Positions 856 through 57,577 of a DNA stretch of 64,000 bases are shown here, piece after piece. Source of the DNA: Onthophagus taurus (lineage: Eukaryota > Arthropoda > Insecta > Coleoptera > Scarabaeidae); contig NC_091973.1 of the NCBI RefSeq assembly GCF_036711975.1, positions 2,046,001 to 2,110,000 on the forward strand. Direction: 5' to 3'. The position numbers were made by a program, and so were the translations under genes. Positions within the stretch are counted from its first letter, which is position 1, and each line of letters opens with the position of its first letter. The notes beneath the pieces are model-generated. The model was given only the letters and a program-made list of their open reading frames with translations, was not told where the DNA came from and ran no database searches.

Positions 856-1075
856 CATGATATAAGAAGTAATCTCGCCCCATATATCATGAACAATACT
901 TAGGGCGGCCGACGTCTTCGAAGTCGGCCGAGATTATTCCTTCCACAAATTTCAAGCAGGGTGCCCAACTGTCTCTATATTGTTCGTGATATGAGAAATA
1001 ATCGTCGGCCGCCCCAAGTGTCATGAGCAATATTTAGGGACTTCATGAACAATACTTAGGGAAGCCGTCGAAAGA
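853..1075. repeat. Modular palindromic repeat, short cluster
   Basis: Two or three copies of the GC-rich core (around CTTCGAAG, flanked by GGCCGA and TCGGCC) or its flanking modules lie here, with the ATCATGAACAATACTTAG spacer and part of the 'short' AT-rich module ending in TTTCAAGCAGGGT. This is the leftmost representative of the family found across the window. Confidence 0.75.
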
Positions 1076-14289: not shown

Positions 14290-16335
14290 GTTGTTTTGGA
14301 TCACACCGAGTTTCTTATTTCTTATATCATGGACAATACTCAGAAATCGGAGCATATTATAAAAAAACTTTTAGAATAAAAGTTGTAGCAAATTTTATTC
14401 TTGACAATATTGCTCTCTTTAATTTTTGCTCTCAGATGCATAAATATCGAGCAAAATACAAAAATATGCTGAATTCGTAGTTATACGTTGTTAATGGTAT
14501 CACTCCGGATTCTGAGCATGAAACCAAGCCTACCCTGCTCATAATTTATGGAAGAAATATCTCGGCCGACTTCGAAGACGTCGGCCGCCCATAAATATCT
14601 TCATGATGCTCGGGGCGGCCGACGTCTTCGAAGTCGGCCGAGATTATTTCTTATATCATAAACAATACTCAGGAATCAGAGCATATTATAAAAAAACTTT
14701 TAGAACGAAAGTTGTAGCAAATTTTATTCTCAACAATATTGCTCTCTTTCATTTTTTCTTTCAGATGCATAAATATCGAGCAAAATACAAAAATATGCTG
14801 AATTCGTAGTTTTACGTTGTTAATGATATCACTCCGGATTCTAAGCATGATACCAAGCCTACCCTGCTTATAATTTATGGAAGAAATATCTCGGCCGACT
14901 TCGAAGACGTCGGCCGCCCATAAATATCTTCATGATGCTCGGGGCGGCCGACATCTTCGAAGTCGGCCGAGATTATTTCTTATATCATGAACAATACTCA
15001 GGAATCGGAGCATATTATAAAAAAACTTTTAGAACAAAAGTTGTAGCAAATTTTATTCTCAACAATATTGCTCTCTTTTATTTTTGCTCGCAGATAGATA
15101 AATATCGAGAAAAATACAAAAATATGCTGAATTCGTAGTTTTACGTTATTAATGGTATCACTCCGGATTTTGAGTATGAAACCAAGCCTACCCTGCTCAT
15201 AATTTATGGAAGAAATATCTCGGCCGACGTCTTCGAAGTCGGCCGCCCATAAATATCTTCATGATGCTCGGGGCGGCCGCCGTCTTCGAAGTCGGCCGAG
15301 ATTATTATAAGATTATATTATAAGAAATAATCTCGGCCGACTTCGAAGATGTCGGCCGCCCCGAGCATCATGAAGATATTTATGGGCGGCCGACGTCTTC
15401 GAAGTCGGCCGAGATTATTTCTTATATCATGAACAATACTTAGGAATCGGAGCATGTTATAAAAAAACTTTTGGAACAAAAGTTGTAGCAAATTTTATTC
15501 TCAACAATATTGCTCTCTTTCATTTTTGCTCTCAGATGCATAAATATCGAGAAAAATACAAAAATATGCTGAATTCGTAGTTTTGCGTTGTTAATGGTAT
15601 CACTCCGGATTCTGAACATGAAACCAAGCCTACCCTGCTCATAATTTATGGAAGAAATATCTCGGCCGACTTCGAAGACGTCGGCCGCCCACAAATATTG
15701 TTCATGATGCTCGGGGCGGCCGACGTCTTCGAAGTCGGCCGAGATTATTATAAGATTATATTATAAGAAATAATCTCGGCCGACTTCGAAGATGTCGGCC
15801 GCCCCGAGCATCATGAAGATATTTATGGGCGGCCGACGTCTTCGAAGTCGGCCGAGATTATTTCTTATATCATGAACAATACTTAGGAATCGGAGCATGT
15901 TATAAAAAAACTTTTGGAACAAAAGTTGTGGCAAATTTTATTCTCAACAATATTGCTCTCTTTCATTTTTGCTCTCAGATGCATAAATATCGAGAAAAAT
16001 ACAAAAATATGCTGAATTCGTAGTTTTACGTTATTAATGGTATCACCCCGGATTCTGAGCATGAAGCCAAGCCTACCCTGCTCATAATTTATGGAAGAAA
16101 TATCTCGGCCGACTTCGAAGACGTCGGCCGCCCATAAATAATGTTCATGATGCTCGGGGCGGCCGACGTCTTCGAAGTCGGCCGAGATTATTTCTTATAT
16201 CATGAACAATACTTAGGAATCGGAGCATGTTATAAAAAAACTTTTAGAACAAAAATTGTAGCAAATTTTATTCTCAATAATATTGCTCTCTTTCATTTTT
16301 GCTCTCAAATGCATAAATATTAATTTGTTAAATTT
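14290..16335. repeat. Modular palindromic repeat block (long-module type)
   Basis: About five long modules, each starting GAGATTATTTCTTATATCAT, running through AAAGTTGTAGCAAATTTTAT and TTTGCTCTCAGATGCATAAA to CCTACCCTGCTCATAATTTA, are separated by facing pairs of the GC-rich core (GGCCGA, CGT, CTTCGAAG, TCGGCC). The spacer between facing cores contains ATCATGAAGATATTTATGGG. Two head-to-head junctions (centres near 15314 and 15759) create long palindromes. Short frames across the cores are repeat artefacts. Confidence 0.9.
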
Positions 16336-16780: not shown

Positions 16781-19700
16781 ATGTCTTCAAACGATCGTAA
16801 GTACCCCTTAAATGAATAAACTTTCGATAAACTCCCATTAAATCTTCAGAAAAACACAAATTCAACATGAAAGATTCCAATGCCGAAGCGAAAAAAAAGT
16901 CATTAAAACTTTTAAAAGACGTCTTTCAAAGTCCTGGCCAATTAGACAAAATTGAACACCACAAAAGAACAGTAATAAGAAACAAACCATCAGTGGAAGG
17001 TTTTTTTAGGTTAAGTTTTGGTTCAGAACCCTGCATACAAAGCGAAAAGACCCTCGAAAGATGTTTAAAAGAAGCCCAAGAAATTGGGCAAAGCTTAAAA
17101 CACGCAATAAACACCTTTCCTAAAGTTGAAGTCCTTTATGGCGGTTTAAACGAGCTTCGAGAAGAAAATATGCGCCACTCTCAATACGTAACAGCCCGAG
17201 AAAACTTAAAACACATATTTACCGTACCCGAAAGCGTTGAGAGAACTGAAAAATGGATAAACGAAGGGAAATTATTGCATACTCACCAGTGTTTGAGGGA
17301 TTTAGAAAACTCCCGTGATGCTTTACTTTATGAGTTACACCGTTTACCCAATCAATCGACGTTCGATAAAAACATGCTTAGCGCGTGTTTTAAAGACGTC
17401 GAAGTACTTTCTGTTAAATTAGAAAAACAGTTAAAATTAATTTTAAGTCGTACTTTAAATACAGTGAGAAAAGAACCCACCGTCATTGTAACAGCTTTAA
17501 GAATCGTTGAACGGGAGGAGAAATTAGACGAGGAGGCGCAACTCCATAAAGAAAAAACCTCCTTCTCAAGACCCGGGAGGCCTAAGGAATGGAGAAAAAT
17601 GGCTTTTGAAGTATTCGAAAAAGCCGTCGCTACACGGATTGAGGGTACTCAAGTCGATGAGAGAGAAAATAATAAAATGTGGCTTGTTACTTACTTAGAA
17701 TTAACGAGGCAATTGATTTTGGAAGATTTAAGAGTTGTTAAAACACTTTGTGTCCCTTGTTTCCCCGAAAAATATAACATTGTTGATGCTTATGTTAGAA
17801 TGTACCATAATTGTTTACGAAGACATGTAAAAAAACTAAATATTTTCGTTATTTACTTTTTAAAATACCTCATTTTAGTTGCAAGAAATTATTCAAAACG
17901 GTTTGGAAGGAAATGAGTATGTTTCAATCTTAAGTTGGACTCTAAATACTTACAAATCTGAAGAATTGATGGGTCACCCTGATTTAGCAAGATCCACACA
18001 AAATTTAGAACCACTCTTACCCGACGGCGTGTTAGAAACGTTACAACAAAAATACCTCAAAGTAAAGAACTAATTAATTTAGGTTTTCATTTCATTTATC
18101 GCCTTTTATGACTCAGTACTGCAAGAACTTTTTTATCAAGCATTTTTTCATTATCAAGTAATTTATACATTAGTAAACCATTCCAATTCATTTAGTTTCT
18201 AATTCATACTATACATGTAAAGGTTATTAATTTTTTATTATTTTTAGAACATTGAAAAAGATTATACAGAGTGGTTAGGAAATGCTATATCACAAGAAAA
18301 ACTTGAATGGATGTCAACCAACGATCCTGCAATTGAAACAACAAGGGCCACAGTTCCGGTTGTTATTTATCAAATGATTCATCAAGTTTTATCTGTAACT
18401 CAAACAATAAGGTACTAACAAATTAGTATTTTGATTATAAAAAGAGACACAAAAAAAATTTTAGAACGAAAGTTGTAGCAAATTTTATTCTTAACAATAT
18501 TGCTCTCTTTCACTTTTGCTCTCAAATGCATAAATATTGAGAAAAGTGCGAAAATTTGCTAAATTCGTGGTTCTACAATTTATTAATGGTAACACTCGGG
18601 AATCGGAGCATATTACAAAAAAACTTTTAGAACCAAAGTTGTAGCAAACTTTATTCTCAACAACATTGCTCTCTTTCATTTTTGCTCTCAGATGCATAAA
18701 TAGCGAGTAAAATACAAAAATATGCTGAAATCGTAGTTTTACGTTGTTAATAGTATCACTCCGGATTCTGAGCATGAAACCAAGCCTACCCTGCTCATAG
18801 TTTATGGAAGAAATATCTCGGCCGACTTCGAAGACGTCGGCCGCCCATAAATATTCTTCGTGATGCTCGGGGCGGCCGACGTCTTCGAAGTCGGCCGAGA
18901 TTATTTCTTATATCATGAACAAAACTCAGGAATCGGAGCATGTTATAAAAAAACTTTTAGATCGAAAATTGTAGCAAATTTTATTCTCAACAACATTGCT
19001 CTCTTTCATTTTTGCTCTCAAATGCATAAATATCAAGAAAAGTACGAAAATATCAAAATTTGCTAAATTCGTGGTTCTACAAGTTCTTAATGGTAGCACT
19101 TTGGAATCAGAGCATATAACAAAAAAACTTTTAGAACCAAAGTTGTAGCAAACTTTATTCTCAACAACATTGCTCTCTTTCATTTTTGCTCTCAGATGCA
19201 TAAATATCGAGTAAAATACAAAAATATGCTGAAATCGTAGTTTTACGTTGTTAATAGTATCACTCCGGATTCTGAGCATGAAACCAAGCCTACCCTGCTC
19301 ATAGTTTATGGAAGAAATATCTCGGCCGACTTCGAAGACGTCGGCCGCCCATAAATATCTTCGTGATGCTCGGGGCGGCCGACATCTTCGAAGTCGGCCG
19401 AGATTATTTCTTATATCATGAACAATACTCAAGAATCGGAGCACGTTATAAAAAAACTTTTAGAACGAAAATTGTAGCAAATTTTATTCTCAACAACATT
19501 GCTCTCTTTCATTTTTGCTCTCAAATGCATAAATATCAAGAAAAGTACGAAAATATCAAAATTTGCAAAATTCGTGGTTCTACAAGTTCTTAATGGTAGC
19601 ACTTTGGAATCAGAGCATATAACAAAAAAGAATTTAGAACAAAAGTTGTAGCAAATTTTGTTCTCAACAATATTGCTCTCTTTCATTTTTGCTCTCAAAT

Positions 19701-22039: not shown

Positions 22040-22875
22040 TTAGGTTTCAAGTTTATGGAAGAAATAATCTCGGCCGACTTCGAAGATGTCGGCCGCCTTA
22101 AATATTGTTCGTGATACTTGGGACGGTCGATATACTGATTTGACTTCATTGAATTTTTTCTTTTGGGGTCATATGAAGAGTTTGTTGTTAATGGTATCAC
22201 TCCGGACTCTGAGCATGAAACCAAGCCTACCCTGCTCATAGTTTATGGAAGAAATATCTCAGCTGACTTCGAAGACGTCGTCCGCCCAATAATATTCTTC
22301 GTTTTGCTCGGGGCGGCCGACGTCTTCGAAGTCGGCCGAGATTATTTCTTATATTATGAACAATACTCAAGAATCGCAACATGTTATAAAAAAAATTTTA
22401 GAACAAAAGTTGTGGCAAATTTTATTCTCTACAATATTGGTCTCTTTCACTTTTGCTCTCAGGTGCATAAATATCGAGTAAAATACAAAAATATGCTGAA
22501 ATCGTAGTTTTACGTTGTTAATAGTATCACTCCTGATTCTGAGCGTGAAATCAAGCCTACCCTGCTCATAGTTTATGGAAGAAATATCTCGGCCGACTTC
22601 GAAGACGTCGGCCGCCCATAAATATTCTTCGTGATGCTCGGGGCGGCCGACGTCTTCGAAGTCGGCCGAGATTATTTCTTATATCATGAACAAAACTCAG
22701 GAATCGGAGCATGTTATGAAAAAACTATATATCTGCGGATTCCGCGGATGAAACCAAACCTACCCTGTTTATAGTTTATACAAGAAATATCTCGGCCGAC
22801 TTCGAAGACGTCGGCCGCCCATAAGTATTGTGTATGATACTTGGGGCGGGAGATTATTTCTTATATCATGAACAA
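22040..22875. repeat. Modular palindromic repeat cluster downstream of Sec6
   Basis: Begins with a GC core near 22070 and contains several facing core pairs, one nearly complete long module (about 22315-22600) and truncated modules near 22740-22870. It starts only about 65 bp after the likely Sec6 polyadenylation site. Confidence 0.85.
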
Positions 22876-24848
22876 TACTCAGGAATCGGAGTTATGGAAA
22901 AATGGAAAAATCACATGACTATACAGACTTTGAAGACGTCGGCCCAAGTGTCATGAACAATACTTAATGCGGCCGACGTCTTCGAACTCGGTCGAGATTA
23001 TTTCTTCCATAAAGTTATTAATGGTATCACTCGGGATTCGAAGCGTCTACCCTGCTTGAAATTTATGGAAGAAATAATCTCGGCCGACTTCGATCCGATC
23101 TACTTGATCTTTCTACAACAAGTATTAAACGTGTTGTTGGATACTGTGAGGTTGAACGTCCATCAAGATACGTGGTTTCAACTGCAGGACAGATTGTAGA
23201 TATCACCAGACAGGATGGAGCGAGTCTGCAGAACTTCATTAAACCGCACTTGTAATGGATCGGAATGCTAACTATTCTTTGAAAAGGATAAAAAGACTTA
23301 TTATTAAAGGTCTCATGTACAAACTCTTGAAGTTTGGGAGAGCACATGTATAACAATGTTAGTAAATATAGGAGTAAAAGTTCTAGAAGACTATAAATAC
23401 AGCGATCTGGAGTTGCTCTAATTAGGAGACATCTATATTACATACTATAAATCTGATTAAGTGAAAAAATTGCATGATTATCGAAATTCATGTTTGTTGC
23501 ATGGGTAGTGGGTAGTCGTGAAAAATACCCAGGAATCGGAGTTATGGAAAAATGGAAAAATCACATGACTATACCGACTTTGAAGACGTCGGCCGCCCCA
23601 AGTGTCATGAACAATACTTAATGCGGCCGACGTCTTCGAAGTCGGCCGAGATTATTTCTTCCATAAAGTTATTAATGGTATCACTCGGGATTCGAAGCGT
23701 GAAACCAAGTCTCCCCTGCTTGAAATTTATGAAAGAAATAATCTCGGCCGACTTCGATCCGATCTACTTGATCTTTCTACACCAAGTATTAAACGTGTTG
23801 TTGGATACTGTGAGGTTGAACGTCCATCAAGATACGTGGTTTCAACTGCAGGACAGATTGTAGATATCACCAGACAGGATGGAGCGAGTCTGCAGAACGT
23901 CATTAAACCGCACTTGTAATGGATCGGAATGCTAACTATTCTTTGAAAAGGATAAAAAGACTTATTATTAAAGGTCTCATGTACAAACTCTTGAAGTTTG
24001 GGAGAGCACATGTATAACAATGTTAGTAAATATAGGAGTAAAAGTTCTAGAAGACTATAAATACAGCGATCTGGAGTTGCTCTAATTATGAGACATCTAC
24101 ATTACATACTATAAATCTGATTAAGTGAAAAAATTGCATGATTATCGAAATTCATGTTTGTTGCATGGGTAGTGGGTAGTCGTGAAAAATACTCAGGAAT
24201 CGGAGTTATGGAAAAATGGAAAAATCACATGACTATACAGACTTTGAAGACGTCGGCCGCCCCAAGTGTCATGAACAATACTTAATGCGGCCGACGTCTT
24301 CGAAGTCGGCCGAGATTATTTCTTCCATAAAGTTATTAATGGTATCACTCGGGATTCGAAGCGTGAAACCAACTCTACCCTGCTTGAAATTTATGGAAGA
24401 AATAATTTCGGCCGACTTCGATCCGATCTACTTGATCTTTCTACAACAAGTATTAAACGTGTTGTTGGATACTGTGAGGTTGAACGTCCATCAAGATACG
24501 TGGTTCCAACTGCAGGACAGATTGTAGATATCACCAGACAGGATGGAGCGAGTCTGCAGAACGTCATTAAACCGCACTTGTAATGGATCGGAATGCTAAC
24601 TATTCTTTGAAAAGGATAAAAAGACTTATTATTAAAGGTCTCATGTACAAACTCTTGAAATTTGGGAGAGCACATGTATAACAATGTTAGTAAATATAGG
24701 AGTAAAAGTTCTAGAAGACTATAAATACAGCGATCTGGAGTTGCTCTAATTAGGAGACATCTACATTACATACTATAAATCTGATTAAGTGAAAAAATTG
24801 CATGATTATCGAAATTCATGTTTGTTGCATGGGTAGTGGGTAGTCGTG
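22876..24848 (+). repeat. 664-bp unit repeated three times
   Basis: Three head-to-tail copies begin near 22876, 23525 and 24190; the second and third are offset by exactly 664 bp and the first has small deletions. Identity is very high, so the amplification is recent. Each unit contains facing GC cores with a short module, then about 430 bp of sequence seen nowhere else in the window. The junction cuts a GC core in its centre. The unique part holds a plus-strand frame ending LQNFIKPHL (copy 1) that I cannot place. The array ends right at the HCF promoter region. Confidence 0.9.
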
Positions 24849-25184: not shown

Positions 25185-28100
25185 ATGGCGGGTAAGCTAC
25201 TACGGTGGAAATCAGTGAATGACCCGTCCGGTCCGCAGCCGAGACCTCGACATGGACATCGCGCCGTTGCTATCAAAGATCTTATGGTAGTTTTCGGGGG
25301 CGGTAATGAGGGCATAGTCGAAGAACTTCACGTTTACAACACAGGTATTGATGTGAATCGCGGCCATTAAATATGGCGCGTGTATGTTATTATTTATACT
25401 TTTTATCTGTAAAGGATTATAGCGACCCCAAAATTCCAACATTCCTCCTACACAAAATCATTAAGTCTTTTCCATTTAAATTCGCCTTTCTATTCATCAT
25501 TTAACCAAAAACTACTTTTTACACCAACGTTTATTTTATGCGCGTGTAAAGATGGCGGCACATACAAACTATTAAACCAACACAATTTTAAATATAAACA
25601 TATATTCTTCTTATTCAATTCAAATCACTAAACCAAGTATCAATTTCATTAAAAAAAAATTTATTATTTTTATTTCTTTTCTCAGCTACTAATCAATGGT
25701 TCGTTCCGATTATGAAGGGGGATATACCCCCTGGATGTGCAGCTTACGGATTTGTCGTCGACGGCACACGTTTATTAATCTTTGGTGGAATGGTTGAGTA
25801 TGGAAAATATAGCAGTGAACTTTATGAACTACAGGTAAATATAATTTATTTTTGTTCCAAAATACTGTCTAAATACAGTAAAACCTCCATATAATGAGAC
25901 AAAATATATCTATATAGATATAATCCAACTTGGGTTATTCCCCAACTTGTTCTATTCCATGTTTATAGATAAACTTGGGGTATTCCCTGACTTATCTACA
26001 CTATGTATAAATCAACAATGGTAGTTCTAGTCTTATTCTAATTGCAGTATATACAGGGTGTTTCACTTAAAATTCCCAGACCTATTATCTCTGGAATGGG
26101 TTGAGATATTTTAGTTCACATAAACTTTTTATTAGGTGCTTGTGACAGAGCAAAAACTGTACAACTTTCCTTATTTACATGATTTCATGTTATTAAGAAA
26201 GTTGTAGCAAATTTTATTCTCAACAATATTACTCTCTTTCACGTTTGCTCTCAGATGCATAAATATCAAGAAAATATCAAAATTTACTAAATTCTACAAG
26301 TTCTTAATGGTAACACTTTGGAATCAGAGCATATAACAAAAAAACTTTTAGAACGAAAGTTGTAGCAAATTTTATTCTCAACAATATTCCTCTCTTTCAT
26401 TTTTGCTCTCAGATGCGTAAATATCGAGCAAAATACAAAAATGTGGTTAATTCGTAGTTTTACGTTATTAATGGTATCACTCCGGAATCTGAGCGTGAAA
26501 CCAAGCCTACCCTGCTCATAGTTTATGGAAGAAATATCTCGGCCGACTTCGAAGACGTCGGCCGCCCATAAAAATAGTTCACGATGCTCGGGGCGGCCGA
26601 CGTCTTCGAAGTCGGCCGAGATTATTTCTTATATCATGCACAATATTCGGGAATCGGAGCATGTTATAAAAAAACTTTTGGAATAAAAGTTGTAGCAAAT
26701 TTTATTCTCAACAATATCACTCTCTTTCATTTTTGCTCTCAAATGCATAAATATCGAGCAAAATACAAAAATGTGGTGAATTCGTAGTTTTACGTTATTA
26801 ATGGTATCACTCCGGATTCTGAGCGTGAAACCAAGCCTACTCTGCTCATAGTTTATGGAAGAAATATCTCGGCCGACTTCGAAGACGTCGGCCGCCCATA
26901 AAAATAGTTCACGATGCTCGGGGCGGCCGACGTCTTCGAAGTCGGCCGCCCCGAGCATTGTGAACTATTTTTATGGGCGGCCGACGTCTTCGAAGTCGGC
27001 CGAGATTATTTCTTATATCATGAACAATATTCAGGAATTAGAGCATGTTATAAAAAAACTTTTAGAACGAAAGTTGTAGCAAATTTTATTCTCAACAATA
27101 TTGCTCTCTTTCATTTTTGCTCTCAGATGCGTAAATATCGAGCAAAATACAAAAATGTGGTTAATTCGTAGTTTTACGTTATTAATGGTATCACTCCAGA
27201 TTCTGAGCGTGAAACCAAGCCTATCCTGCTCATAGTTTATGGAAGAAATATCTCGGCCGACTTCGAAGACGTCGGCCGCCCACAAATATTGTTTATGATG
27301 CTCGGGGCGGCCGACGTCTTCGAAGTCGGCCGAGATTATTTCTTATATCATGAACAATACTCAGGAATCGGAGCATGTTATAAAAAAACTTTTGGAATAA
27401 AAGTTGTAGCAAATTTTATTCTCAACAATATTACTCTCTTTCATTTTTGCTCTCAGATGCGTAAATATCGAGCAAAATACAAAAATGTGGTGAATTCGTA
27501 GTTTTACGTTACTGATGGTATCACTCCGGATTCTGAGCGTGAAACCAAGCCTACTCTGCTCATAGTTTATGGAAGAAATATCTCGGCCGACTTCGAAGAC
27601 GTCGGCCGCCCATAAAAATAGTTCACAATGAACTTTTCTTATTTACATTGATTTCACGTTATTGAGAAAGTTGCCAAAACTGAAAATTCAGCTAAGAGAT
27701 TCTCTCCTGGCAAAAATTTATTTATTTTTTGAATTCGATGACATGTAACAGAAATTTGCATGTTCTCTTACAAAACTACAATATCTCAACTCATTCCAAA
27801 GATACTTGACCTGGAAATTTTAAGTGAAACACCTTGTATATTCTGTTGAGACTCGCTATATGTCGTGGTTTTACTGTAATTTTATAAAAATAACTTAAAA
27901 TAAAATTGCTATAGGCTTCCAGGTGGGAATGGAAAAAATTAAAACCACGTCCACCAAAACTCGGTACAGCACCGTGTGCTCGACTTGGTCACAGTTTTAC
28001 CCTTGTAAATGATAAAGTGTACTTGTTTGGGGGATTAGCAAACGAAAGCGAAGACCCAAAAAATAATATACCCCGTTATTTAAATGATTTATACGCGTTG

Positions 28101-31100: not shown

Positions 31101-32791
31101 GGGTTGAAGAAGCTATGGCAAATCAAATGCTATAATGTGACATATAGATATACAAGGTGTTCATTAAGTATAGAACGAAGTATAGAATAATCTTGAATTC
31201 AATATCTGTACTGTTCACAGGGAAATTAAAAAATTGACAATTTTAAAAAATGGTGCTAAAAAAAGTTGTTCCTTTTTTAATTCTTAACAAGTTTTATTTG
31301 AAAAATATTTTGATACAAATAATATTTAGGAAAATAATCTTGAATTCCATCTCTATACTGTTCACAGGGAAATTAAAAAATTGATAATTTTAAAAAATGA
31401 TGCATACAAAAGTTGTTCCTTGTTTAATTTTTAACAAGTTTTATTTAAAAAATATTTTGATACAAACAATAATTAGGAAAATAATCTTGAATTAAATTTC
31501 AATACTGTTCACAGGGAAATTAAAAAATTAATAATTTTAAAAAATGGTGCCAATGAAAGTTGTTCCTTACTTAATATTTAACAAGTTTTATTTGAAAAAT
31601 ATTTTGATACAAACAATAATTAAGAAAATAATCTTGAATTAAATTTCAATACTGTTAACAGGGAAATTAAAAAATTGATAATTTTAAAAAATGGTGCTAA
31701 TGAAAGTTGTTCCTTACTTAATTCTTAACAAGTTTTATTTGAAAAATATTTTGATACAAACAATAATTAGGAAGATAATTTTGAATTTGATTTCTATACT
31801 ATTCACAGGGAAATTAAAATGTTGATGATTTTAAAAAATGATGCTAATGAAAGTTGTTCCTTGTTTAATTCTTAACAAGTTTTGTTTAAAAAATATTTTG
31901 ATACAAACAATACTTAGGAAGATAATCTTGAATTTAGTTTCTATACTGTTCAGAGGGAAATTAAAAAATTGATGATCTTAAAAAATGGTGCCAATAAAAG
32001 TTGTTCCTTTTTTAATTCTTAACAAGTTTTATTTGAAAAATATTTTGATACAAATAATATTTAGGAAAATAATCCTGAATTCCATCTCTATACTGTTCAC
32101 AGGGATATTAAAAAATTGATAATTTTGAAAAATTTTTCCAACAAAGGTTGTTTCTTTTTAATTCTTAACAAGTTTTATTTGAAAAATATTTTGATACAAA
32201 TAATATTTAGGAAGATAACCTTGAATTCAATATCTATACTGTTCAGAGGGAAATTAAAAAATTGATGATCTTAAAAAATGGTGCCAATAAAAGTTGTTCC
32301 TTTTTTAATTCTTAACAAGTTTTATTTGAAAAATATTTTGATACAAACAATAATTATTAAAATAATCTTGAATTTCAGTACTATACTGTTCACAGGGAAA
32401 TTAAATTATTATTAAATATTATTAAAAAGATACTTAATTAACACTTTGTGTATATCACATATAGATCTTGATAATCGAGTACAACATTTACAAGTTATCA
32501 GTTAAAAGTCATTTTTGTATTATTTTATTTTTCTTGAAGTTTTCTTGTTATAATCAAAATACTAAAAATCGGAAAAGGACACACCGTTATGAAACCTCTA
32601 AAAAAATTCAATTCTATATTACTATACAAAAATTTTTATTGTAAATTTAAATTGAGTTGTATAAAAAAAATTTGTATTGATTTACAGATTGTAAATGCCC
32701 GACATACCCATCATTATTAATATCATCGAAACACGTCGCAACCGGAAGCAAAGGGACAGCTGTAAAGAAACAAATGATTACGGATATATAG
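25185..32791 (+). CDS. Hcf: Host cell factor (HCF), Kelch-domain chromatin coregulator
   Basis: Nuclear scaffold linking transcription factors to histone-modifying complexes. Exons in phase: 25185-25344, 25686-25834, 27915-29202, 29265-29866, 29929-30916 and, tentatively, 32688-32791 (1096 residues). The six-bladed Kelch propeller fills residues 1-350 ([54 protein letters not shown]). A first fibronectin-like half-domain follows ([18 protein letters not shown]), then a long Ala/Thr/Val/Gln-rich region and an acidic stretch. The C-terminal fibronectin region is recognisable only at its end ([18 protein letters not shown]). Intron 3 (29203-29264) needs a GC-AG border: only GCAAGT at 29203 keeps the frame. 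Intron 2 is filled with nested elements. If the last exon is wrong, the frame ends at 30933. AATAAA at 34253-34258 is one candidate 3' end. Confidence 0.85.
26052..27838. mobile_element. Inner MITE with inverted ends, itself split by a repeat block
   Basis: Left end TACAGGGTGTTTCACTTAAA pairs with the right end ATTTTAAGTGAAACACCTTG; similarity continues for about 60 bp (GGAATGGGTTGAGATATT against its complement near 27781). TA at both borders fits a Tc1/mariner-type miniature element. It was later split by the modular repeat block 26205-27630, and a 42-43 bp piece of it appears on both sides of that block (26163-26204, 27631-27673). Confidence 0.65.
26190..27630. repeat. Modular palindromic repeat block in HCF intron 2
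   Basis: Four to five long modules with GC core pairs. At 26898-26975 a single core has the same GGGC-side flank on both sides, giving a palindrome with arms of about 35 bp. Modules here carry AAAAATGTGGTGAATTCG where those at 14290-16335 have AAAATATGCTGAATTCG, so the block amplified locally. Confidence 0.88.
31195..32415 (+). repeat. ~148-bp satellite array (about 9 units)
   Basis: CTGTTCACAGGGAAATTAAA (or a close variant) recurs near 31208, 31367, 31505, 31654, 31799, 31947, 32092, 32239 and 32387. Other unit parts are GTTGTTCCTTTTTTAATTCT and TTTTGATACAAACAATAATT. The unit aligns with the first half of the ~290-bp satellite. The array lies in the proposed last intron of HCF. Confidence 0.93.
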
Positions 32792-34778: not shown

Positions 34779-37700
34779 ATGGAGAACTCCTACGGCATCG
34801 GTGTGGAGAACCGTTACGCGCTTTTCCTCGATGACGAATCGGACCCGTTGGAAACGATTAAATTGAAGGAGCAAGAGAAAGAGCTGAAAAAGAAGACGAA
34901 GGTTGCCGAGAAGGAAAACAAGGTTAAGACCGAAGCCCCGGCTAAAGGCAAGACCGCACTGCCCCAGAAGAAGGTCGTTAAAGATCCACCAAATCATAAA
35001 ATACAAGATAACAAGCGCGAAGGTGAGTATATATACTTTAATTTATATTTATATATCTACCTTCATTGAAACCGATTGAGACGGCCATGTTCAGGCACAT
35101 GTGATTTCTATACCACACTTTTTTACTTATTTACCAAGTAAATACTCCATCAATCTTATTTTACGTCGATGAAACTAGATTTTATATTTAAGTTTCCCGG
35201 CTTACTCAAATCGATTTGTTTAGATATCTTTTTGTTAAAACTATAACTTAACCTTTTTTGGGAAAACTAACCTTGTCATATCTCTATATCTATATTGTAA
35301 ATTTTTAAATGAAAAAACTCATTAAAAGTTATGAGTCCTCAATTTTATCAATTTTCTTAATAATCCTATTTAAGATTTAAAAAAATATTTGTTTGCAACA
35401 AAAATTTCTTGTTTGATTTATGATATCTAACATCAAGTTGAATAAAAAATTATTAATTACTTCATTCTTGGAATTTAACTTTTTTTGTAACCTTTATTAA
35501 ACATTTTTATGCAATGACTTTTCACAACTAATTTCAACAATGATTTGGTATTGCTACTTTTGGAGCTTAGATTAGAAATTTATTAATGACTCATTTATTA
35601 AGAATGAATTGATAAATTCGACTTTTTTGGGAAAGTTAAAATGATTATTAATATTGTTATTTTTATAAGTTTAACCCTTTATTAATGAAGAGCCTATACA
35701 GTGTGTTTGATTTTAGTAGTAAAAGCAGATATCTTGATCCAACCCAATTTGAACATGAACCCAAGTCTACCCTGGTGGATAAGAAAAAATAGAAATAATC
35801 TCCCGCCCCAAGTATCATGAAGAATACTGAATACTTAATTCTTCCATAAACTTCAACCAGGGTAGACTTGGTTTCATGTTCTGAATCCTGAGTGGTCCAT
35901 TAACAACTTTATAGAAGAAATAATCTTGGCCTACTTCGAAAACGTCGGCCGCCCCAAGTTTTTTCGTGATATAAGAATTAATCTCGGCCGACTTCGAAGA
36001 CGTCGGCCGCCCCAAGTATCATGAAACCCAACCCAACCCAAGTATCATGTGCAATACTTAGGGCGGCCGACGTCTTCGAAGTCGGCCGAGTTGTTTCTTC
36101 CATAAACTTCAAGTAGGGTAGACTTGGTTTCACGCTTTAAATACTGGGTGATCCCATTAATAACTTTATGGAAGAAATAATCTCGGCCGACTTCGAAGAC
36201 GTCGGCCGCCCCAAGTACCATGAGCAATACTTAGGGCGGCCGACGTCTTCGAAGTCGGCCGAATTGTTTCTTCCATAAACTTCAAGCAGGGTAGACTTGG
36301 TTTCACGCTTTAAATACTGGGTGATCCCATTAATAACTTTATGGAAGAAATAATCTCCTCCGACTTCGAAGACGTCGGCCGCCCCAAGTATCATGAAGCA
36401 TGAGCAATACTTAGGGCGGCCGACGTCTTCGAAGTCGGCCGAGTTGTTTCTTCCATAAACTTCAAGTAGGGTAGACTTGGTTTCACGCTTTAAATACTGG
36501 GTGATCCCATTAATAACTTTATGGAAGAAATAATCTCGGCCGACTTCGAAGACGTCGGCCGCCCCAAGTATCATGAGCAATACTTAGGGCTGCCGATGTC
36601 TTCGAAGTCGGCCGAGTTGTTTCTTCCATAAACTTCAAGCAGGGTAGACTTGGTTTCACGCTCCGAATCCCGAGTGATACCATTAACAACTTCTAAAACT
36701 ACGAATTCAGCAAAGTTTCATATTTTTGTATTTTTTTCGTTATTTATGCATCTGAGAACAAACGTGAAAAAGAGCGATATTGTTAAGAACTCGGAATTCC
36801 AGGTGTTTTGAAATGAAAAATTGATTCATTTTGCTTCCAGATAAGGAGGTATATTGTTCTGCGATATGTCAATTTGTTTCAATTGACTCTACATCAAGTC
36901 TGCACAGAGTCAAGTCAGCATTAAGATAGTATTACATCTCTTAATTTGCTCATTAAATGTGAATCAAATCATTTATCAAGTTAAAGGCTGCTTCAGATTT
37001 CTATAAGACCTGCAAAACTATGTTTAGCAGTACATCATAACGTAATAAAGTTTAATAAAATCCTCATTAAGATTAAATCAAGTCTTTCGATGTTTGCATG
37101 AATATCTTCTTAACCATTTGTTGTAATCACCGAATATTTCTACATAAAATATGTGATTTTGAAAATTTTCTTATCGCGATAAAAATTTTTAATTTTTGTC
37201 CCCTTTATGATTTTTTTTCTCAAAAATTACTTGACGAAAAAAATTTAAATTTTGGACAGGTGGTGCTTGATGTGTTCTTAATAAGGGACATATTTTATTT
37301 TTTGTATATTCCATTTAGTTTCGCAGAAAATCGCGGTTTAATAGGCTACCATTATGTCGAAAACTGGCGGAATATATTAAATATTTTCGGGTTATTTCAA
37401 AATAACTATAAAAAAAACTGCTGGATTTAATATCGAACGCGTTAAATTGATTTCACTGGAATTTCGTGACTCATTTTCACGAATTACAAACGAACACAAT
37501 GGGGCAATATTTTCGTACTTTGCTTATTTTAAACAAAAAAAGTGCTTAAACATTTTTATCTTTATCGTTCGATTAAATATTTCTTTAATTCTGGTGATTG
37601 CTTTAAATTCTTCATTATGTTTGTTTAAGTTTTTATTTGTTCTTGGCAAAAAAATGAAAAAAAATGTTTTATTGAAAATATAAATTTTTATTTTAGAAGG

Positions 37701-42616: not shown

Positions 42617-45600
42617 ATGGCGTCAAACGAAGACGACAGTTCTTTCTCCAGCCCGGAAACGAAATTAAACCCATCAACAGCATCCAACGAACAATCCAAC
42701 AGTTGCCCGTGTATTAACCAAGAAAAAAATGATATTAAAGGTATGAGAAATTCTAAAAATGTCTTCTATTGTTGACATCACGCCTACGATTCTAACCTCA
42801 TTCTTTTAGTTGGGTTTCATCACAAAACCCATCATCAGGAATCTTTTAGAAATTATGCACCTACAAATATTTCTTATAAAAAATTAAATTAATATTTTTA
42901 TTAAAAAAAATTGTTATAAATAATATTTTTATATTTATTTGATTTTCCAATATAGGTAATTATTAGGCTACTTAGAGTGAAGCGCAAGCGCATTTTATAT
43001 CCCAAGCAGCGAAAGTGTTATTGCGCATGTATGGAGGTGGATTGAGTAATAATGCCTTTTTGAAATCCTCATGGAGAAGACGTTAAAATGATTCCACCAT
43101 ATTGATGATTTGGTAATGCGCGGGAAAACGACTCGACTTCCATTGGAGATATGACAAAATCTCGGCCGACTTCGAAGACGTCTTATATCACGAACAACTT
43201 GGGGACGTCTTCGAAGTGGGCCGAGATTATTTCTTCCATAAAGTTATTAATGCTATCACTTAGGAGTTGGAGTGTGAAACCAAGTCTACCCTGCTTGAAA
43301 TTTATGGAAGCCATAATCTCGGCCGACTTCGAAGACGTTGGCCGCCCCAAGTTAAGCTCGTGATGTAGGAAATGATCTCGGCCGACTTCAAAGACGTCCA
43401 TTCCTATATCACGAACTCAACTTGGGGCGGCCGACGTCTTCGAAGTTGGCCGAGATTATTTCTGTTGATATAGGTAATAATCTCGGCCGACTTCGAAGAC
43501 GTCGGCCGCCATAAGTATTGTTCGTGATGGAGCATGATCTTCGCCTGCAACCCAACCTAAGTATCAAGAACAACACTTAGTGTGGACGACGTCTTCGAAG
43601 TCTTTCTATATCACGAATAATACTTGAGGCGGCCGACGTCTTCGAAGTCGGCCGAGATTGTTTCTGTTGATATAGGTAATAATCTCGGCCGACTTCGAAG
43701 ACGTCGGCCGCTATAAGTATTGTTCGTGATGGACCATGATCTTCGCCTGCAACCCAACCTAAGTATCAAGAACAACACTTAGTGTGGCCGACGTCTTCGA
43801 AGTCGGCCGAGCTTGTTTTCTACATCACTAATAATACTTGAGGCGGCCGAAGTCTTGGAAGTCGGCCGAGATTATTTCTTCCATAAAGTTATTAATGGCA
43901 TCACTCGGGATTCGAAGCGTGAAACCAAGTCTACCCTGCTTGAAATTTATGGAAGCCATACTCTCGGCCGACTTCGAAGACTTCGGCCGCCCCAAGTTAA
44001 GCTCGTGATATAGGAAATGGTCTCGGCCGACTTCGAAGACGTCAGTTCCTATATCACAACTTTAAAACTCAACCCAAGTATCACGAACAATACTTAGGGC
44101 GGCCGACGTCTTCGAAGTCGGCCGAGATTGTTTCTGTTGATATAGGTAATAATCTCGGCCGACTTCGAAGACGTCGGCCGCTATAAGTATTGTTCGTGAT
44201 GGACCATGATCTTCGCCTGCAACCCAACCTAAGTATCAAGAACAACACTTAGTGCGGCCGACGTCTTCGAAGTCGGCCGAGCTTATTTTCTATATCACGA
44301 ATAATACTTGAGGCGGCCGACGTCTTCGAAGTCGGCCGAGATTATTTCTTCCATAAAGTTATTAATGGCATCACTCGGGATTCGAAGCGTGAAACCAAGT
44401 CTACCCTGCTTGAAATTTATGGAAGCCATACTCTCGGCTGACTTCGAAGACTTCGGCCACCCCAAGTTAAGCTCGTGATATAGGAAATGGTCTCGGCCGA
44501 CTTCGAAGACGTCAGTTCCTATATCACAACTTTAAAACTCAACCCAAGTATCACGAACAACACTTAGGGCGGCCGACGTCGGCCGCCATAAGTATTGTTC
44601 GTGATGGAGCATGATCTTCGCCTGCAACCCAACCTAAGTATCAAGAACAACAGTTAGTGTGGCCGACGTCTTCGAAGTCGACCGAGCTTGTTTTCTATAT
44701 CACGAATAATACTTGAGGCGGCCGACGTCTTCGAAGTCGGCCGAGATTATTTCTTCCATAAAGTTATTAATGGCATCACTCGGGATTCGAAGCCTGAAAC
44801 CAAGTCTACCCTGCTTGAAATGTATGGAAGCCATAATCTCGGCCGACTTCGAAGACTTCGGCCGCCCCAAGTTAAGCTCGTGATGTAGGAAATGGTCTCG
44901 GCCGACTTCGAAGACGTCAGTTCCTATATCACAACTTTACAACTCAACCCAAGTATCCCGAACAACACTTAGGGCGGCCGACGTCTTCGAAGTCGGCCGA
45001 GATTATTTCTGTTGATATAGGTAATAATCTCGGCCGACTTCGAAGACGTCGGCCGCCATAAGTATTGTTCGGGATGGAGCATGATCTTCGCCTGCAACCC
45101 AACTTAAGTATCAAGAACAACAGTTAGTGTGGCCGACGTCTTCGAAGTCGGCCGAGATTATTTCTTCCATAAAATTATTAATGGTGTCACTCGGCATTCG
45201 GAGCGTGAAACCAAGTCTACCCTGCTTGAAATTTATGGAAGCCATAATCTCGGCCGACTTCGAAGACTTCATTTCCTATATCACAACTTTACTTGGGGCG
45301 GCCGACGTCTTCGAAGTCGGCCGAGCTTGTTTTCTACATCACGAATAATATTTGAGGCGGCTGACGTCTTCGAAGTCTCCAAAGTCTTCAGAGCATCAAA
45401 ATATTTGCTGTGACAGCTAATATCAAACACACTGTGTACATCATACAACAACCTTCTGATTAAAGAGATTGGACTCTACAGTTATGCTATATTATTATGT
45501 AGTTGCCTCAAAGTCGACATATTCAACCAACAACATTGATGTTGGTGAAATTATCATGCATACTGAACGCAATGGATGCATAACTCATTACACAGGGGAA

Positions 45601-48600: not shown

Positions 48601-51600
48601 TATAGGAAATAATCTCGGCCGACTTCGAAGACGCCGGCCGCCCTAAGTATTCTTCGCGATGCTTGGGTTGGGTTCTGTTCGGCCCAGATTATTTCTGTTG
48701 ATATAAAAAATAATCTCGGCCGACTTCGAAGACGTCGGCCGCCATAGGTATTGTTCATGACAGGCATGATCTTCGCCTATATGCAACCCAAACCAACTGA
48801 AGTCAACCCAACCCAAGTATTGCGAACAATACTTAGGACGGCTGACGTCTTCGAAGTCGGCCGAGATTATTTCTGTTGATATAAGAAATAAGCTCGGCCG
48901 ACTTCGAAGACGTGGGCCGCCCCAAGTTATCTTCGTGCTATAAAAAGTAATCTCGGCCGACTTCGAAGACGTCGGCCGTCCTAAGTATTGTTCGCGATAC
49001 TTGGGTTGGGTTGAGTTCAGTTTGTTTGGGTTGCATATAGGCGAAGATCATGCTCTATCACGAACAATACCTATGACGGCCGACTTCGAAGACGTTGGCC
49101 GCCCTAAGTATTGTTCGCAATACTTGGGTTGGGTTCTGTTCGCCCGAGATTATTTCTGTTGATATAAAAAATAATCTCGGTCGACTTCGAAAACGTCGGC
49201 CGCCATAGATATTGTTCCTGACTGAGCATGATCTTCGCCTATATGCAACCCAAACCAACTGAACTCAACCCAAGTATCGCGAGCAATACTTAGGACGGCC
49301 GACGTCTTAGGAGGCGGGCGAGCTTATTTCTTATATCAACAGAAATAAGCTCGCCCAACTTCGAAGACGTCGGCCGCTCCAAGTTATCTGCGTGATATAA
49401 GAAGTAATCTCCAAGTGCTGTACAGGGTGGGCAAATTTGGGTGTTATTATAGGCTATCTCAGAAACTATAAGAGATACAAAAAAAGTAGGTGCCATGTCC
49501 CGGTCTCTTTTTCCGAGACTAATCCAATCCCGTAAAGACCAAATCTCTATCTTCTTTTGTTTTTAAGTTATAGCCAAAAAGTCAAATTTTAGTGATTTCA
49601 AAAAATGCTCGTATTTCATTTATTTTTCAAATTAGAGAAATGGGCTTAATGCATTCTTAAGACACTTTTTTGAGTAGAATATACTGCCGTTGAAAATTTT
49701 TTAACATAGCTGATAATTTTTGAGATATAACATAAAGTTGTATTTTTTTAAATACAACCTATACTTTATTACGATGTTACTGAAAAGAGCATGATGTTTC
49801 TGCGGAAAATAAGCGTTATTTTTCAATTTTTAAAATATTAAAGATTAAAATTCAAATTTTTAATTATAGTAGGCGAGGAAAACGCTAAATACTACTTAGT
49901 TACTATAGCAACGTGAGTTTACTTGTCATTTCATTCATAAATTTTGCGAAACGAGTTTCCCGTTTAAGAAGTTCCGCATTATCTTTAAAGAAAACGATAA
50001 AATTAAATATAGAATATATTGGAGTCCGCTTTGAAGATGATACATAAGTCTTCATATCCCCATTCAAACGGTGTTTCAATGGAAAGTCCGCTCCCAGTTT
50101 ATGATTCCTAATTTTCCTCTATCTCACCCAATTTCAAAAGAAAATATTGCTGATATCAAAAAACTTCTACATCTTATGTTTGGGGAAAACTGGGAATATA
50201 CTACCGAAGATTTCATTCATTGATACCGAACTGTTCTAATCTTACAACCAGTAAGTTGAGTAGAAGAAGATGACAGTTTATGACTCTTTAGTTCCTGAAG
50301 TTGTCCATATTTAATTATTCATTAATTAATACATTTCTTGTATTTTTAATAAACAAACTTTAAATGCTAATCATTTTTTATTGGTGAACAAAGTCAGGGA
50401 TAAGATGCTGAGAAATTTAAATTAACTATTCAAAGTTTTTATTCGTTGGTACAAAACCAACTTATCCTGAATAATGGTACAAAACCAACTTTATTCTGTC
50501 ATATTCGTGCAAAACCATATATTATAGCCACTAGGTAGTATTTACTGTCCGGACCCGCCTACTATAATCGAAATTTTGAACATTAGCGCTTACTATTTTC
50601 GAATTGAAAATTAACGCTTATTTTCCGCAGAAACATTATGCGTGCGATACATCATTGGAAAGCTAAAAATATGCTCTTTTCTTTAACATCATAATCGAGT
50701 ATAGTTTGTATTTAAAAAAACACAACTTTGTGTTATATCTCAACAATCATCAAGTATATTTAAAACTTTTCAACGGCAGTATATTCCACTTAAAAAAGTG
50801 TCTTAAGAACGTATCAACCCCATTCCTATAATTTGAAAAATAAACGAAATATGAGCATTTTTTGAAATCACGAAAATTTGACTTTTTGGCTATAACTTAA
50901 AAACAAAAGAAGATAGAGGTTTGATGTTTGCGGGATTGAATTAGTCTCGAAAAAAGAGACCGGGACATGGCACCTACTTTTTTCGTATCTCTTATAGTTT
51001 CTGAGATAGCCTATAATAACACCCAAATTTGCCCACCCTGTACAACTCCAAGTATTGTACTCCAAGTACAATACTTAGCTAATTTTCATAGTTTTCTGGA
51101 TATTTACGCTTCTAAGAGCAAAAGTCTAGTGTTAGTTAAATAAAAATATGTTTTTGTCTACATTTAATGTCTATATTTTACTATATTACTAATATTTTTT
51201 AGCATGGCATATAAGATTAAAAATGTATGGAGAGCCCGTAAAACCAGGCACAGGTCCCGAATTTTTATCATTAAATGGTACATTAATTCCGGGAATGGCG
51301 GATAGACCCATAGCAAAATCAGATCAAGTGAAAGTGGAGCGTGAAAAAGAAAAAGAAAAACACCGCGAGAAACAAAACACCACGAAACATACTTCAACTA
51401 AAGAAGAAGATTTAAAGCGACCCCACAAAGGTGATAAATCCGAAAATCCTCATAGCAGACATTACGACAAAGATTACACGCCAAGTAAACATAAAAGTTC
51501 GAAACGAGATCGACATGACGACGATAAAAAGAAACACAGGCACAAATCGTCGTCAGATCATCATCATAGATCGTATACAGATCAAAATAAATCGGTTAAA

Positions 51601-53815: not shown

Positions 53816-56800
53816 TTAAGATGTATTAAAATTTAATTTGAAAAGTAATTTCTTAATAAGAAGTTTGTAAGCAGTGTACATAATTGTGATTAAAACAAGA
53901 GAAATAATCAAGATTATAGTTGTAACCCAACCAAAACTAGAATACCCCAATTTTAAGAAAAATGGTTTTGATACACATCTTACTTCACTGTCAAAAGAAT
54001 TCCTAACGACAACGACCAACGTTTGCGTAATTTCCTCGTGTATTAATTCGTCTTTTAAAGCAACGCTTAACTTTGGATCTTCCTTATTAAGTTCTGTATG
54101 CAACAATTTAGTGTGATGGTAAATTTTTTCGTCGTTTAAATCACTACAATTGTATTTAAACACTTCGTAAGCATGTTTTGGAAGATAAACGAACGCTTCG
54201 CTAAAATCAAAAAAATAAATTAATAATAAAGAAAACCCCCAAAATTATTACCAACCTAAATCCATCCAAATTTTTGAAAATTAATGATTTAAAAACGATA
54301 AAAGTGTCATTAATAAATTCAAAACTACCGCTTCTTTTAATTATTGGTGTTTTCGGTGGAGTTTTTATTGTTTTATATATAGGATTTGAAACTCCTCCTA
54401 AATTGGTGACTTGTAAACCGACGGTTATGTATTTTGCGCTAAATTCTTCAACGTTCATTGCCATCGAAAAGAATTTAATATCATCCCCTTCAATGGAAAA
54501 CATAAAAATCCTTTTCGCAATAGTTATGATACAAAAGATTAATCGTCCATAAGATTTATCGGGGCGTTCAAAATTAACAACCATAACAAGATCGTGCAAA
54601 ATAATTTCAAAGTTTAGAGGCGCTTCGGGTCGATCTTCTTTGGTTACAACGTTAATAGGATTCGTACATTCACTTAAATTCGTCGAATTAACATTTTTCC
54701 CAACAACCTAAACAATATATTGGGAGTAAATTAATTCAGATTTTTTTAAATACTTACACAAATCGTGTAATTTTCGTTTGCTTTTAAATTGTTAATTTCG
54801 CCGCAAATAAGTTCAGGCCAAAAAATGCAATTCGAATCGATCTCGATTTTTGCTACTCGAAGTTCTTGACGTCTCGTTTCAACCCAGTATTGTATAAAAT
54901 AATTTTCTAATTGTCCTGTAGGTGGATACGGTTTTGACCAGCGAAGAGAAATCGAAGAAACCGTTTTTGAATACATTGTAATGTTGGGTATAGGAAGTGG
55001 AGCTAAAAAAATTTTGTTAATTTTAAAAATCGAAATATTATTTTGTTACCTGTTGGAGCAGTTAAAATTGAGAAGTTGTGATATAGGCGATTATTTAAGA
55101 AATTTTCATTCCTCGAAAATAATATGGTAACGTTATATGTTGAGTAACCCAATATTTTATAGCTGTGGCTCATAGATCCCCGATAAAATCTTTTTGTAAC
55201 TGTTTTTGTTTTGATGTCTTCGTTCCATGGATCTTTTCCTTCCACTGTTAAGATATAGAATAATTGCCCTTGTATTTTTTTGCAGTCAAATAATGATAAT
55301 GAAATTTCTAAATTAAAATGATCTTGTTTTGTTTGTATTATTGGCAAATCCTCTTCTTCAAGTGTTTCTAAAAAAATATTAATTATTTATATATTAATTT
55401 TTTTATTAAATACTAATAAATAATTACCTTTTGGGAACATATCTATAGCTTGTTCTAAAATAATTCCTTCATTTTCATGTAAAATCGTAAAATTGTAAGT
55501 TACAAAAGGTGTTAATCCCGATAAGTTAGAAAACAATATAGTTCCAAAATTATCTGGGACAACATATTTAATTGTAACGTTGCTTTCGTAAATTTTTTTC
55601 TTACAATCGACGTATTTAACGGGCTAAAACAAAAAAATTCGATTTATATTTAATTTATATAAATTATATATAAATTATTATAATAATAAGTACTTACAAT
55701 ATACTCCAAAGTAAAATTTTTATTTTCGCTGTTTGAAACCCAAAACAAATCGACTTCTTCGCTACTTTTTACAATAATCGTTCCTTTTTTAGTAACTCCC
55801 CTCCTCGATTTAATGCTAAGTTCCGGGTATCTTATCGAAGCGCAAACTGGTACCTTATTCAGCATCATTTTCGTCGTATTTAATTCTAAAATTCGATTGT
55901 TGTCGCTACAATCTCTTAAATCGCTTACAAAAACTTTGTGTCCATCGGTTGAGGTGGATATATTTAAATATAAACCAACATCGTCGCCGATTTTAGCTCT
56001 TAAAAAGACTTCTTCCCAAACGTTTTCTTTCGTAACCGTATAATTAACAATCGGGGAAATCTCATTATTTAACGATAGAGATAAATTCGCTTGGGGAGTT
56101 TTCTTAACGAAAATAGCCAAACAAACATTTCCCTTTTTGTTAATTTCTTGTATAGGAAATTTGATTTCGCCGGTTTGATTCGTCGAAATGAAATCGTCTA
56201 AAAAGACAAAATTAAAAAAATTAAACAAAATTTTTTTAATTAATTAATTCTTACATGAATGTATTTTCCATAAAACCACTTTTTCGCTACCAATGAAAAC
56301 GTAATTCGCCGTAAAATCATCGTCTTTGAATTCGGCAATTTTTTCTTTATCATCTATTAAGAATGTAAAAATGTTGTTTTCGCTTAAAAATTTTAAATGG
56401 TACCAAATCGCGGATTTTTTAAAAGCTGGCCAAAAACTCCTAGTATTCTTTATACAACCGTCTAGGGAAATTTTGCAAATTTCAACGTTATCGTTGAAAA
56501 TAATTTTGTAACATAATCCGGCGAAAACGGTGTTATCTTCGCAAATTAGAACGAAAAAGGTGTCAGTTGGGGAGCCTTTTTTAACCGAGAAAGTAATTGA
56601 TGACTTATTAAAATCATTTTTTGGAAATTTATGAATTAATTGGGCCTCTCCCGTGCGGTGAATGTTCGAGTTTTGATTTATTTTCCATTCAGCGGGCGAA
56701 TTTGTTAAACTTGCTATGAAAACATAACGGGTTAAAATTACATCATCGGTATCCTTGTAATGTATTATATTGTTCTTGTCACTTTGGATGTTAATCATAG

Positions 56801-57577
56801 AATTTAATACTGTTATTAAGTAAGAATTCCAACCATCTTCGATTTTTTCGCGATGAAAAGATTGAATCTCTTTTTTATCCCTACATTTTCCCCGGGGATT
56901 AACCCCTTGATATTGGGGAATCGTGCCTTGTTCGCACCTCCTTACACTAATCTCTTTGTGGTTATAACCAGCTAAAGTTATCCAGTAACAATTGCTATCG
57001 GGCGGAAAATTCCCATCGCAGAGATAAACGAAACCGTTGGTGTTAGTTTTAAGAGAAATTTTAATTTGTAACTTAATATATATGTTAGGAATATCTACGA
57101 GTTGATAATATATAGGTGTTGTTTTGATAGCTTCAAAACCTAAAAAGAATTTTTTTAAAAAATATTTTATATCCATATAAAAAAAATCTAACTTTCCCAT
57201 CTCCGATCTAAAATCGTATCGAAGTCATAATTCAATGAGTTATCGAGGGTCCAAAAATCGCGCAATAATCGTCTCGTGCAATCATTATCTTTACCAACGG
57301 AACAATAAAACAGATTCGGTTTATATCTTGATATTTTCACCACGTCTGTTTGATTTGTTTCCCAGACAATCGCCGTCCCGGTTGTCTGGGTTTCGTCTTT
57401 TAAAAGACAGTATAAGAGGTTGGCTGGTCGATTTTCCAATAATTCCAAACTTGGTAAATTCGAATTCCCGAATTTAAGATGAATCAAGAGCGACAATAAA
57501 ATCCTAACATCCATATTAAAAAAAAATATAATAATTAACAAACAATAAAGAACTTACCATTGAATTTTCAAACTCAT
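53816..57577 (-). CDS. Single-pass membrane receptor-like protein with fibronectin-type modules
   Basis: I do not recognise the gene by name. Nine exons join in phase to 1103 residues (complement): 57577-57558, 57503-57193, 57139-56255, 56197-55698, 55623-55428, 55367-55050, 55002-54758, 54707-54256, 54200-53816. The first exon gives MSLKIQWILLSLLIHLKFG, a signal peptide. Exon 3 encodes two tandem ~140-residue modules that resemble, weakly, the farnesoic-acid O-methyltransferase-like domain (SNCYWITLAGYNHKEISVRR; TANYVFIGSEKVVLWKI). Later exons hold fibronectin-III-like repeats, best at SISLRWSKPYPPTGQLENYF. Many Asn-X-Ser/Thr sites support an extracellular location. A membrane segment (WVTTIILIISLVLITIMYTA) is followed by only about 20 basic residues, so there is no kinase or phosphatase domain. 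TATATAAG (minus strand, 57680-57673) is a likely TATA box. A copy of part of exon 5 lies at 58618-58730. Confidence 0.75.

Follow-up and report, generated by a model that had tools for sequence, protein, structure and literature searches.

The window analysed here, 64,000 bp of the Onthophagus taurus genome (bases 2046001-2110000 of contig C8, which measures 21.07 Mb; the genome amounts to 290.8 Mb in 33 contigs), carries many copies of a 23-bp asymmetric near-palindrome, GGCCGACGTCTTCGAAGTCGGCC, hereafter the core. The question raised by this locus is what kind of element the core belongs to, and what keeps it uniform among sequences that differ. An earlier note on this DNA had taken the core for the centre of a modular repeat family, and possibly for a recombination or replication junction; the core itself was read directly in the window as described there.

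Core clusters and their neighbourhood in the window

The window contained 49 exact cores (28 plus, 21 minus) and 86 cores with ≤5 mismatches, which bore out an estimate of 80-100. When cores with ≤4 mismatches lying <1500 bp apart were grouped, eight clusters were obtained instead of the nine claimed. The interval that had been regarded as the densest did hold the largest cluster (43164-45381), but the cluster at 35928-36613 was about equally dense per kb. The features referred to below are as follows.

907..929, plus strand: single exact core
14564..16183, unstranded: cluster of 14 cores, with 329/443-bp higher-order units and facing core pairs
14564..14639, unstranded: example of a facing pair (core on minus, 30-bp spacer, core on plus)
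18820..19399, unstranded: cluster of 4 cores between two Sec6-matching ORFs
22072..24311, unstranded: cluster of 12 cores downstream of the last Sec6-matching ORF
26541..27607, unstranded: cluster of 8 cores just upstream of an ORF matching the HCF kelch domain
35928..36613, unstranded: cluster of 9 cores in 173-bp units
43164..45381, unstranded: largest cluster, 27 cores (≤4 mismatches), with 202/405/470-bp composite units
44256..44314, plus strand: the simplest unit, exemplified by a 59-bp step between successive core starts
44571..44584, plus strand: collapsed core GGCCGACGTCGGCC, its TTCGAA centre lost (read directly)
48617..49375, unstranded: cluster of 9 cores near TTGGG-type telomere-like words

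Among the 20 window ORFs of ≥120 aa, 18 were scanned (10 at E 0.001 and 8 at E 0.05), and matches to Sec6, host cell factor (HCF), a CSC1-type channel and adenylate kinase were identified. An ORF on the minus strand (56244-57200) showed a weak match, below the cut-off, to farnesoic acid O-methyltransferase. No known structured RNA was matched in the window at the Rfam gathering score. A dispersed repeat at 49687-51011 shared 93% identity with C1 near 23.21 Mb over 1377 aligned columns. Further, long AT-rich tandem arrays without cores were present at 4431-5456 (283 bp), 7570-12750 (294 bp), 19450-20790 (174 bp), 31186-32405 (147 bp), and 58738-61302 (147/421 bp), and sequence resembling the 174-bp repeat also adjoined cores in some composite units.

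Copy number, direction and modules

Genome-wide, 1372 exact cores were found (694 forward, 678 reverse) against 0 copies of the reversed control pattern, which excludes chance. The symmetric 20-mer, corresponding to the palindrome without the three extra bases, occurred at a single site in the entire genome; the asymmetric form is the one that is kept, although the rarity of the 20-mer alone does not prove selection, because its formation takes one specific 3-bp deletion. Two one-base variants were present in 122 and 12 copies, respectively. A variant altered in both palindrome arms had five exact copies, all in a single array (C16:2.261-2.263 Mb), and was rejected as hairpin proof by compensatory change, since a double change limited to one array provides no independent covariation. 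The core was not found in viral contigs or in bacterial and archaeal genomes, and three of its substrings had no match in the literature text searched, which agrees with the earlier opinion that no named family has such a design, though the core may still have a counterpart among named insect repeats.

The core had been described as directional, with its CGT side facing GGGC and its other side facing GAGA. This rule was followed by 83 of the 86 window cores (1 reversed, 2 unclear) and, over 27 loci, by 423 of 441 scored cores (8 reversed, 10 unclear; 442 cores were found, one of them without flank). A stricter form of the rule, with C as the left neighbour and GA as the right neighbours, was obeyed by 170 of 198 cores. 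Core orientation thus predicts the neighbouring module, and the description of a modular family built on a directional core held. The details of the modules differed from those first given. The spacer between facing cores was usually 30-31 bp, both GGGC ends included, rather than ~20 bp, and the start-to-start distance of facing pairs in the window was 53 or 54 bp in 17 of 32 cases. The right-hand module, first given as AT-rich, proved to be one of several.

Over 14 merged loci, neighbouring cores <700 bp apart had their CGT sides facing in 65 pairs and their GAG sides facing in 58, and were arranged in tandem in 53. Core-to-core steps in these loci were most often 53/54 bp where CGT sides faced each other and 59 bp where cores ran in tandem, which makes 59 bp the simplest repeat unit; longer units consisted of this unit plus other modules. 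All four pairings of two left with two right module types were detected, each in 2-10 loci, these types being simple pattern classes in which the two left types are alike and 276 of 415 cores were scored as "other" on at least one side. Tandem Repeats Finder (TRF) arrays holding cores were identified in the window, and core-bearing tandem arrays, the arrangement that defines satellite DNA, were present on C1, C2, C6, C8, and C16. Another 13 C8 loci, picked because cores were already known there from previous searches, carried the same core, and their near flanks were for the most part shared as well. The sequences represent a satellite-DNA superfamily, arranged as short composite arrays in gene-bearing DNA, with a simplest unit of 59 bp.

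Outside the core, the units were diverse. Twelve representative monomers were compared at E 0.01 with the cores and 15 bp on each side masked, and 50 of 66 pairs gave no match. Three groups were left. One held units of 306/334 bp (C1, C16). A second held units of 317 bp (C2, C8), with a weak link to a 391-bp C8 unit through a match of 29 bp. The third comprised the window units together with C8 and C6 units that short matches connected to them. By eye, the 391-bp unit had a right flank resembling a diverged window module. The same motif was thus conserved in otherwise divergent monomers, with exceptions in 5 of the 15 array comparisons described below.

An old non-autonomous transposon, or an element of the foldback/Helentron type, could account for such dispersal if the core were a subterminal transposase site and the arrays internal repeats, but we consider this improbable. 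Single and paired copies on other chromosomes and the common inverted arrangements of cores are in its favour, and the excerpts of PMC7492417 describe both palindromes and satellite-like repeats in the centre as typical of HINE elements in oyster. The oyster arrays and those described here have dispersed short arrays and palindromes in common; the excerpted text reports element-specific left and right flanks for Helentron/HINE arrays, whereas in our data 14 of 351 locus pairs had any sequence in common at more than 130 bp from a core, with no common ends, several loci being short and retaining little flank. The earlier suggestion that the core is not a simple transposon end fits this result. 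Against a transposon also speak the 18 scanned ORFs, which gave no transposase match (an RNase H hint at E 0.029 was below the cut-off), and the copies read, in which no target duplication was noticed by eye. As judged from sequence, the data lend no support to a mobile element as the carrier of the arrays.

Probable constraint on the core and the ends of homology

Conservation of the core was examined in a flank-anchored comparison, in which the flanks served as anchors and the second core was not chosen for being intact; the pairs overlap and are not independent. Exact cores were seen in none of 4 pairs at 70-75% flank identity, in 4 of 10 at 75-80%, 40 of 76 at 80-85%, 240 of 370 at 85-90%, 448 of 705 at 90-95%, and 180 of 279 at 95-100%. 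In the upper bins, mean core identity (91.7% at 90-95% and 95.4% at 95-100%) did not exceed flank identity, because cores were either exact or replaced/misplaced.

Within arrays, 626 of 6792 core sites differed, compared with 4346 of 25271 sites outside. The ratio of core to non-core divergence was <0.6 in 10 of 15 array comparisons and 0.93-3.4 in the other five, each of which had one to three monomers; the 15 comparisons are not independent, monomers being partly shared, and most loci were chosen because they bear cores. The clearest cases were the 334-bp array on C16 (1 of 138 core sites differing vs. 130 of 1491 outside) and the 329-bp array of the window (5 of 368 vs. 156 of 2218). In a window-by-window divergence test, which could be scored for nine of the 15 comparisons, the core changed more slowly than every non-core stretch in four; in two more, 4 of 198 and 44 of 184 non-core stretches were equally slow, and in the remaining three the core was unremarkable or among the fastest stretches.

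Among copies ≥80% identical, divergence outside the core was 0.152 at CpG, 0.091 at other G/C, and 0.066 at A/T sites, and that within the core was 0.044 at G/C and 0.054 at A/T sites, the latter barely slower than flank A/T. CpG and G/C sites decay fastest outside the core, and mutation pressure therefore works against the core, not for it. The slow change of the core despite this decay points to a constrained site, most likely a protein-bound one; homogenisation or recombination centred on the core could also keep it uniform.

Plain local expansion of a functionless GC-rich satellite along one region, with the core kept uniform by gene conversion, seems unlikely. Many other tandem arrays exist in the window and in the loci, and some arrays showed no excess core conservation, both of which such an expansion would accommodate. 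It is less easily reconciled with the recurrence of the same core in three monomer groups lacking detectable similarity, on C1, C2, C6, C8, and C16, or with the divergence outside the core, where no sign of G/C sites being favoured was seen.

The junction idea of the earlier note fared better in some respects than in others. In the form considered here, the palindrome would break or stall replication forks and template switching would join new flanks at its edges, local re-insertion would build arrays nearby, and the core would be uniform since only core-carrying units keep amplifying; as a whole we regard this as possible but rather doubtful. Homology between arrays did tend to stop near the core: homology ends were 1.1-2.2 times as frequent as expected from -30 to +49 bp from the core centre, peaking between +20 and +29 bp (2.24 times expectation) and with values ≤0.61 from 60 bp outwards, although part of this pile-up is to be expected, since the conserved block has its own edge there. 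Modules reassort across the core, and cores are strongly clustered locally. In addition, both facing pairs that were folded, as DNA or RNA, formed predicted long hairpins (z between -12.4 and -15.3), among them 14564..14639 with its flanks (14555-14648; DNA z -12.4). The arrays, however, were not regularly bounded by cores as a junction would predict, and tandem arrays without any core were common in the same loci, which speaks against the core being needed for amplification. A junction by itself does not need all 23 bases, and the symmetric form, which would be the better cruciform, exists at one site only. The outcome is consistent with a junction and leaves it unproven, and the conservation of the core appears to point at least as much to a protein-binding site.

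We tentatively prefer, at a confidence just short of even, a satellite superfamily whose conserved core is a putative protein-binding site around which modules have been swapped. More than 1000 near-invariant cores in short arrays, apparently located mostly in one part of one chromosome, suggest recognition by a protein. The core would then be the binding site of a sequence-specific DNA-binding protein, organised as two half-sites, GGCCGAC and GTCGGCC, around a GTCTTCGAA centre that gives it direction. Such a protein would read the entire 23-bp site, including its direction, so that the core tends to stay fixed while its neighbours change. Sequence adjoining a bound, hairpin-prone core might more often be duplicated, inverted and swapped, with new modules gathering around an unchanged core. 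Breakage or template switching beside the core may be the source of this variety, as suggested by the hairpins, the homology ends, and the module swapping.

Chromosomal distribution and comparison with known systems

Among the first 100 of the 1372 exact matches listed, 48 were on C1-C7, which span at least 177 Mb (from the lengths of C1, C2, and C6 and the highest match positions for C3, C5, and C7), and 52 were on C8 up to 1.75 Mb; none of the 100 was on C4. The copies are thus distributed very unevenly, C1-C7 accounting for 48 of all 1372. The 52 listed C8 cores were all on the plus strand, which was taken as an artefact of the listing, the 122-copy variant occurring on both strands of C8. 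Two variant searches were listed in full and together gave 40 places: 27 on C8, 26 of these at 2.62-5.33 Mb, with 7 in one C16 array and 6 on C1-C7. One of the two, made with a family-specific flank, contributed 28 places, namely 15 on C8 (2.62-4.45 Mb), 7 on C16, and 6 on C1-C7. The other, for the 12-copy variant, had all its places on C8, with 11 copies at 2.63-5.33 Mb and one at 8.99 Mb, the site of an array with 15 cores. Of the first 100 matches listed for the 122-copy variant, 95 fell at 1.15-5.42 Mb of C8. When C8 was sampled systematically in 4-kb pieces, cores turned up in 1 of 8 pieces at 1.25-5.1 Mb and in none of 11 from other parts, numbers too small to weigh either way. An exact 39-mer of the AT-rich 174-bp repeat was found at six places (five in its own array and one on C10), too few to serve as a concentration control. 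The concentration of cores in ~1-5.5 Mb of C8 is well supported, the exact share aside.

This distribution raises a special case of the preferred protein-binding reading, in which the core would be the address of a chromosome domain, for X-recognition or meiotic pairing, read by a dedicated protein; we consider it very unlikely. The variant places on C8 just described are in line with it, and C8 begins with a telomere array; the 15-core array at 8.99 Mb and the scatter of the chromosome-4 markers are not. Drosophila chromosome 4 is the old insect X, and HCF, PurA, RpS3A, CaMKII, PAX, and Ephrin are genes resident on it. Of these markers, HCF was located on C8, within the window, and PurA and RpS3A on C16, and CaMKII matches were found on C1 in pieces and on C7 in a single frame. 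None of 14 PAX matches was on C8 or C16, and the Ephrin-domain search gave no match anywhere, controls included, and is uninformative on location. These scattered markers gave a mixed picture, and C8 as an X, or a dosage-compensation role, was not supported. PurA and RpS3A share the 3.2-Mb contig C16 (C16:2415689-2416282 among the sites), which also bears a core array and deserves a second look. The CaMKII match on C7 (C7:37140209-37140583) is an undivided open frame that encodes a CaMKII association domain and is distinct from the C1 matches.

In a broader form of the address reading, the core would be a long directional address by which a dedicated insect DNA-binding protein marks several Mb of one chromosome for meiotic pairing or coordinated regulation, with the satellites as the vehicle multiplying it; this, too, we hold to be quite unlikely. 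Under the preferred reading, the marked domain could have a chromosomal job or the core could be merely a selfish site.

Six contig ends were fetched, and pure (TTGGG)n was found at four of them (the starts of C8, C2, and C1 and the end of C6); the ends of C8 and C2 were not (TTGGG)n arrays. Such a telomere motif is uncommon among insects; the excerpts of PMC12564400 and PMC8233369 report it from beetles, Odonata, Hymenoptera, and Neuroptera. Telomere-like words, (TTGGG)x2, adjoined cores in the window (36027-36041, 48663, 48807, 49001, and 49124) and at three other loci (L066, L070, and L071). Of 32 such words, 27 lay within 75 bp of a core, a zone covering 28.8% of bases in loci chosen for their cores, and six were seen in the window versus 0.1 expected. 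A subtelomeric origin of one module is possible.

The anatomy of the family is that of satellite DNA with a conserved box, a kind already known from Meloidogyne. In the excerpted text of PMC9673304, Meloidogyne satellites carry a CENP-B-box-like 17-bp motif and a 19-bp box that are conserved in satellites otherwise divergent (36-74% identity), and the motif is a proposed protein-binding site seen by FISH on all chromosomes. The core resembles these boxes as a short motif highly conserved within divergent satellites and differs from them in that its listed copies are concentrated on part of one chromosome. Compared by eye with the CENP-B box quoted in those excerpts (YTTCGTTGGAARCGGGA), the core did not match, TTCG being common to both and the remainder not.

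Other systems share single features with the core. The Drosophila 1.688X satellites form short tandem arrays, hundreds in number, amid the genes of a single chromosome, and are AT-rich with a unit of ~359 bp according to the excerpts of PMC11228850; the arrays described here resemble them in their placement but have a GC-rich fixed core and variable units. Meiotic pairing centres of C. elegans, one per chromosome, recruit HIM-8/ZIM zinc-finger proteins and consist of short-motif clusters near one chromosome end, as excerpted from PMC3820632. The core is similarly clustered near one end, its listed places falling mostly in 1-5.5 Mb of the 21-Mb C8, a result that rests partly on the first 100 of 122 and the first 100 of 1372 matches listed. 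Nested dyad symmetry in insect satellites is also known from Tribolium madens, whose macro-dyad satellites are described in the excerpts of PMC13081366 as megabase-sized, with kb-scale inversions, in likely (peri)centromeric regions, in contrast to the short arrays near genes and the 23-bp core of O. taurus.

A 23-bp site that tends to stay fixed amid replaced surroundings, packed in one gene-bearing chromosome domain, provides an unusually clean handle on the question of whether recognition by a protein is what maintains dispersed satellites. Its length would allow a candidate protein to be sought by affinity purification. If the domain has a role, the core would be another chromosome-specific address beside the 1.688X/MSL sites and the worm pairing centres.
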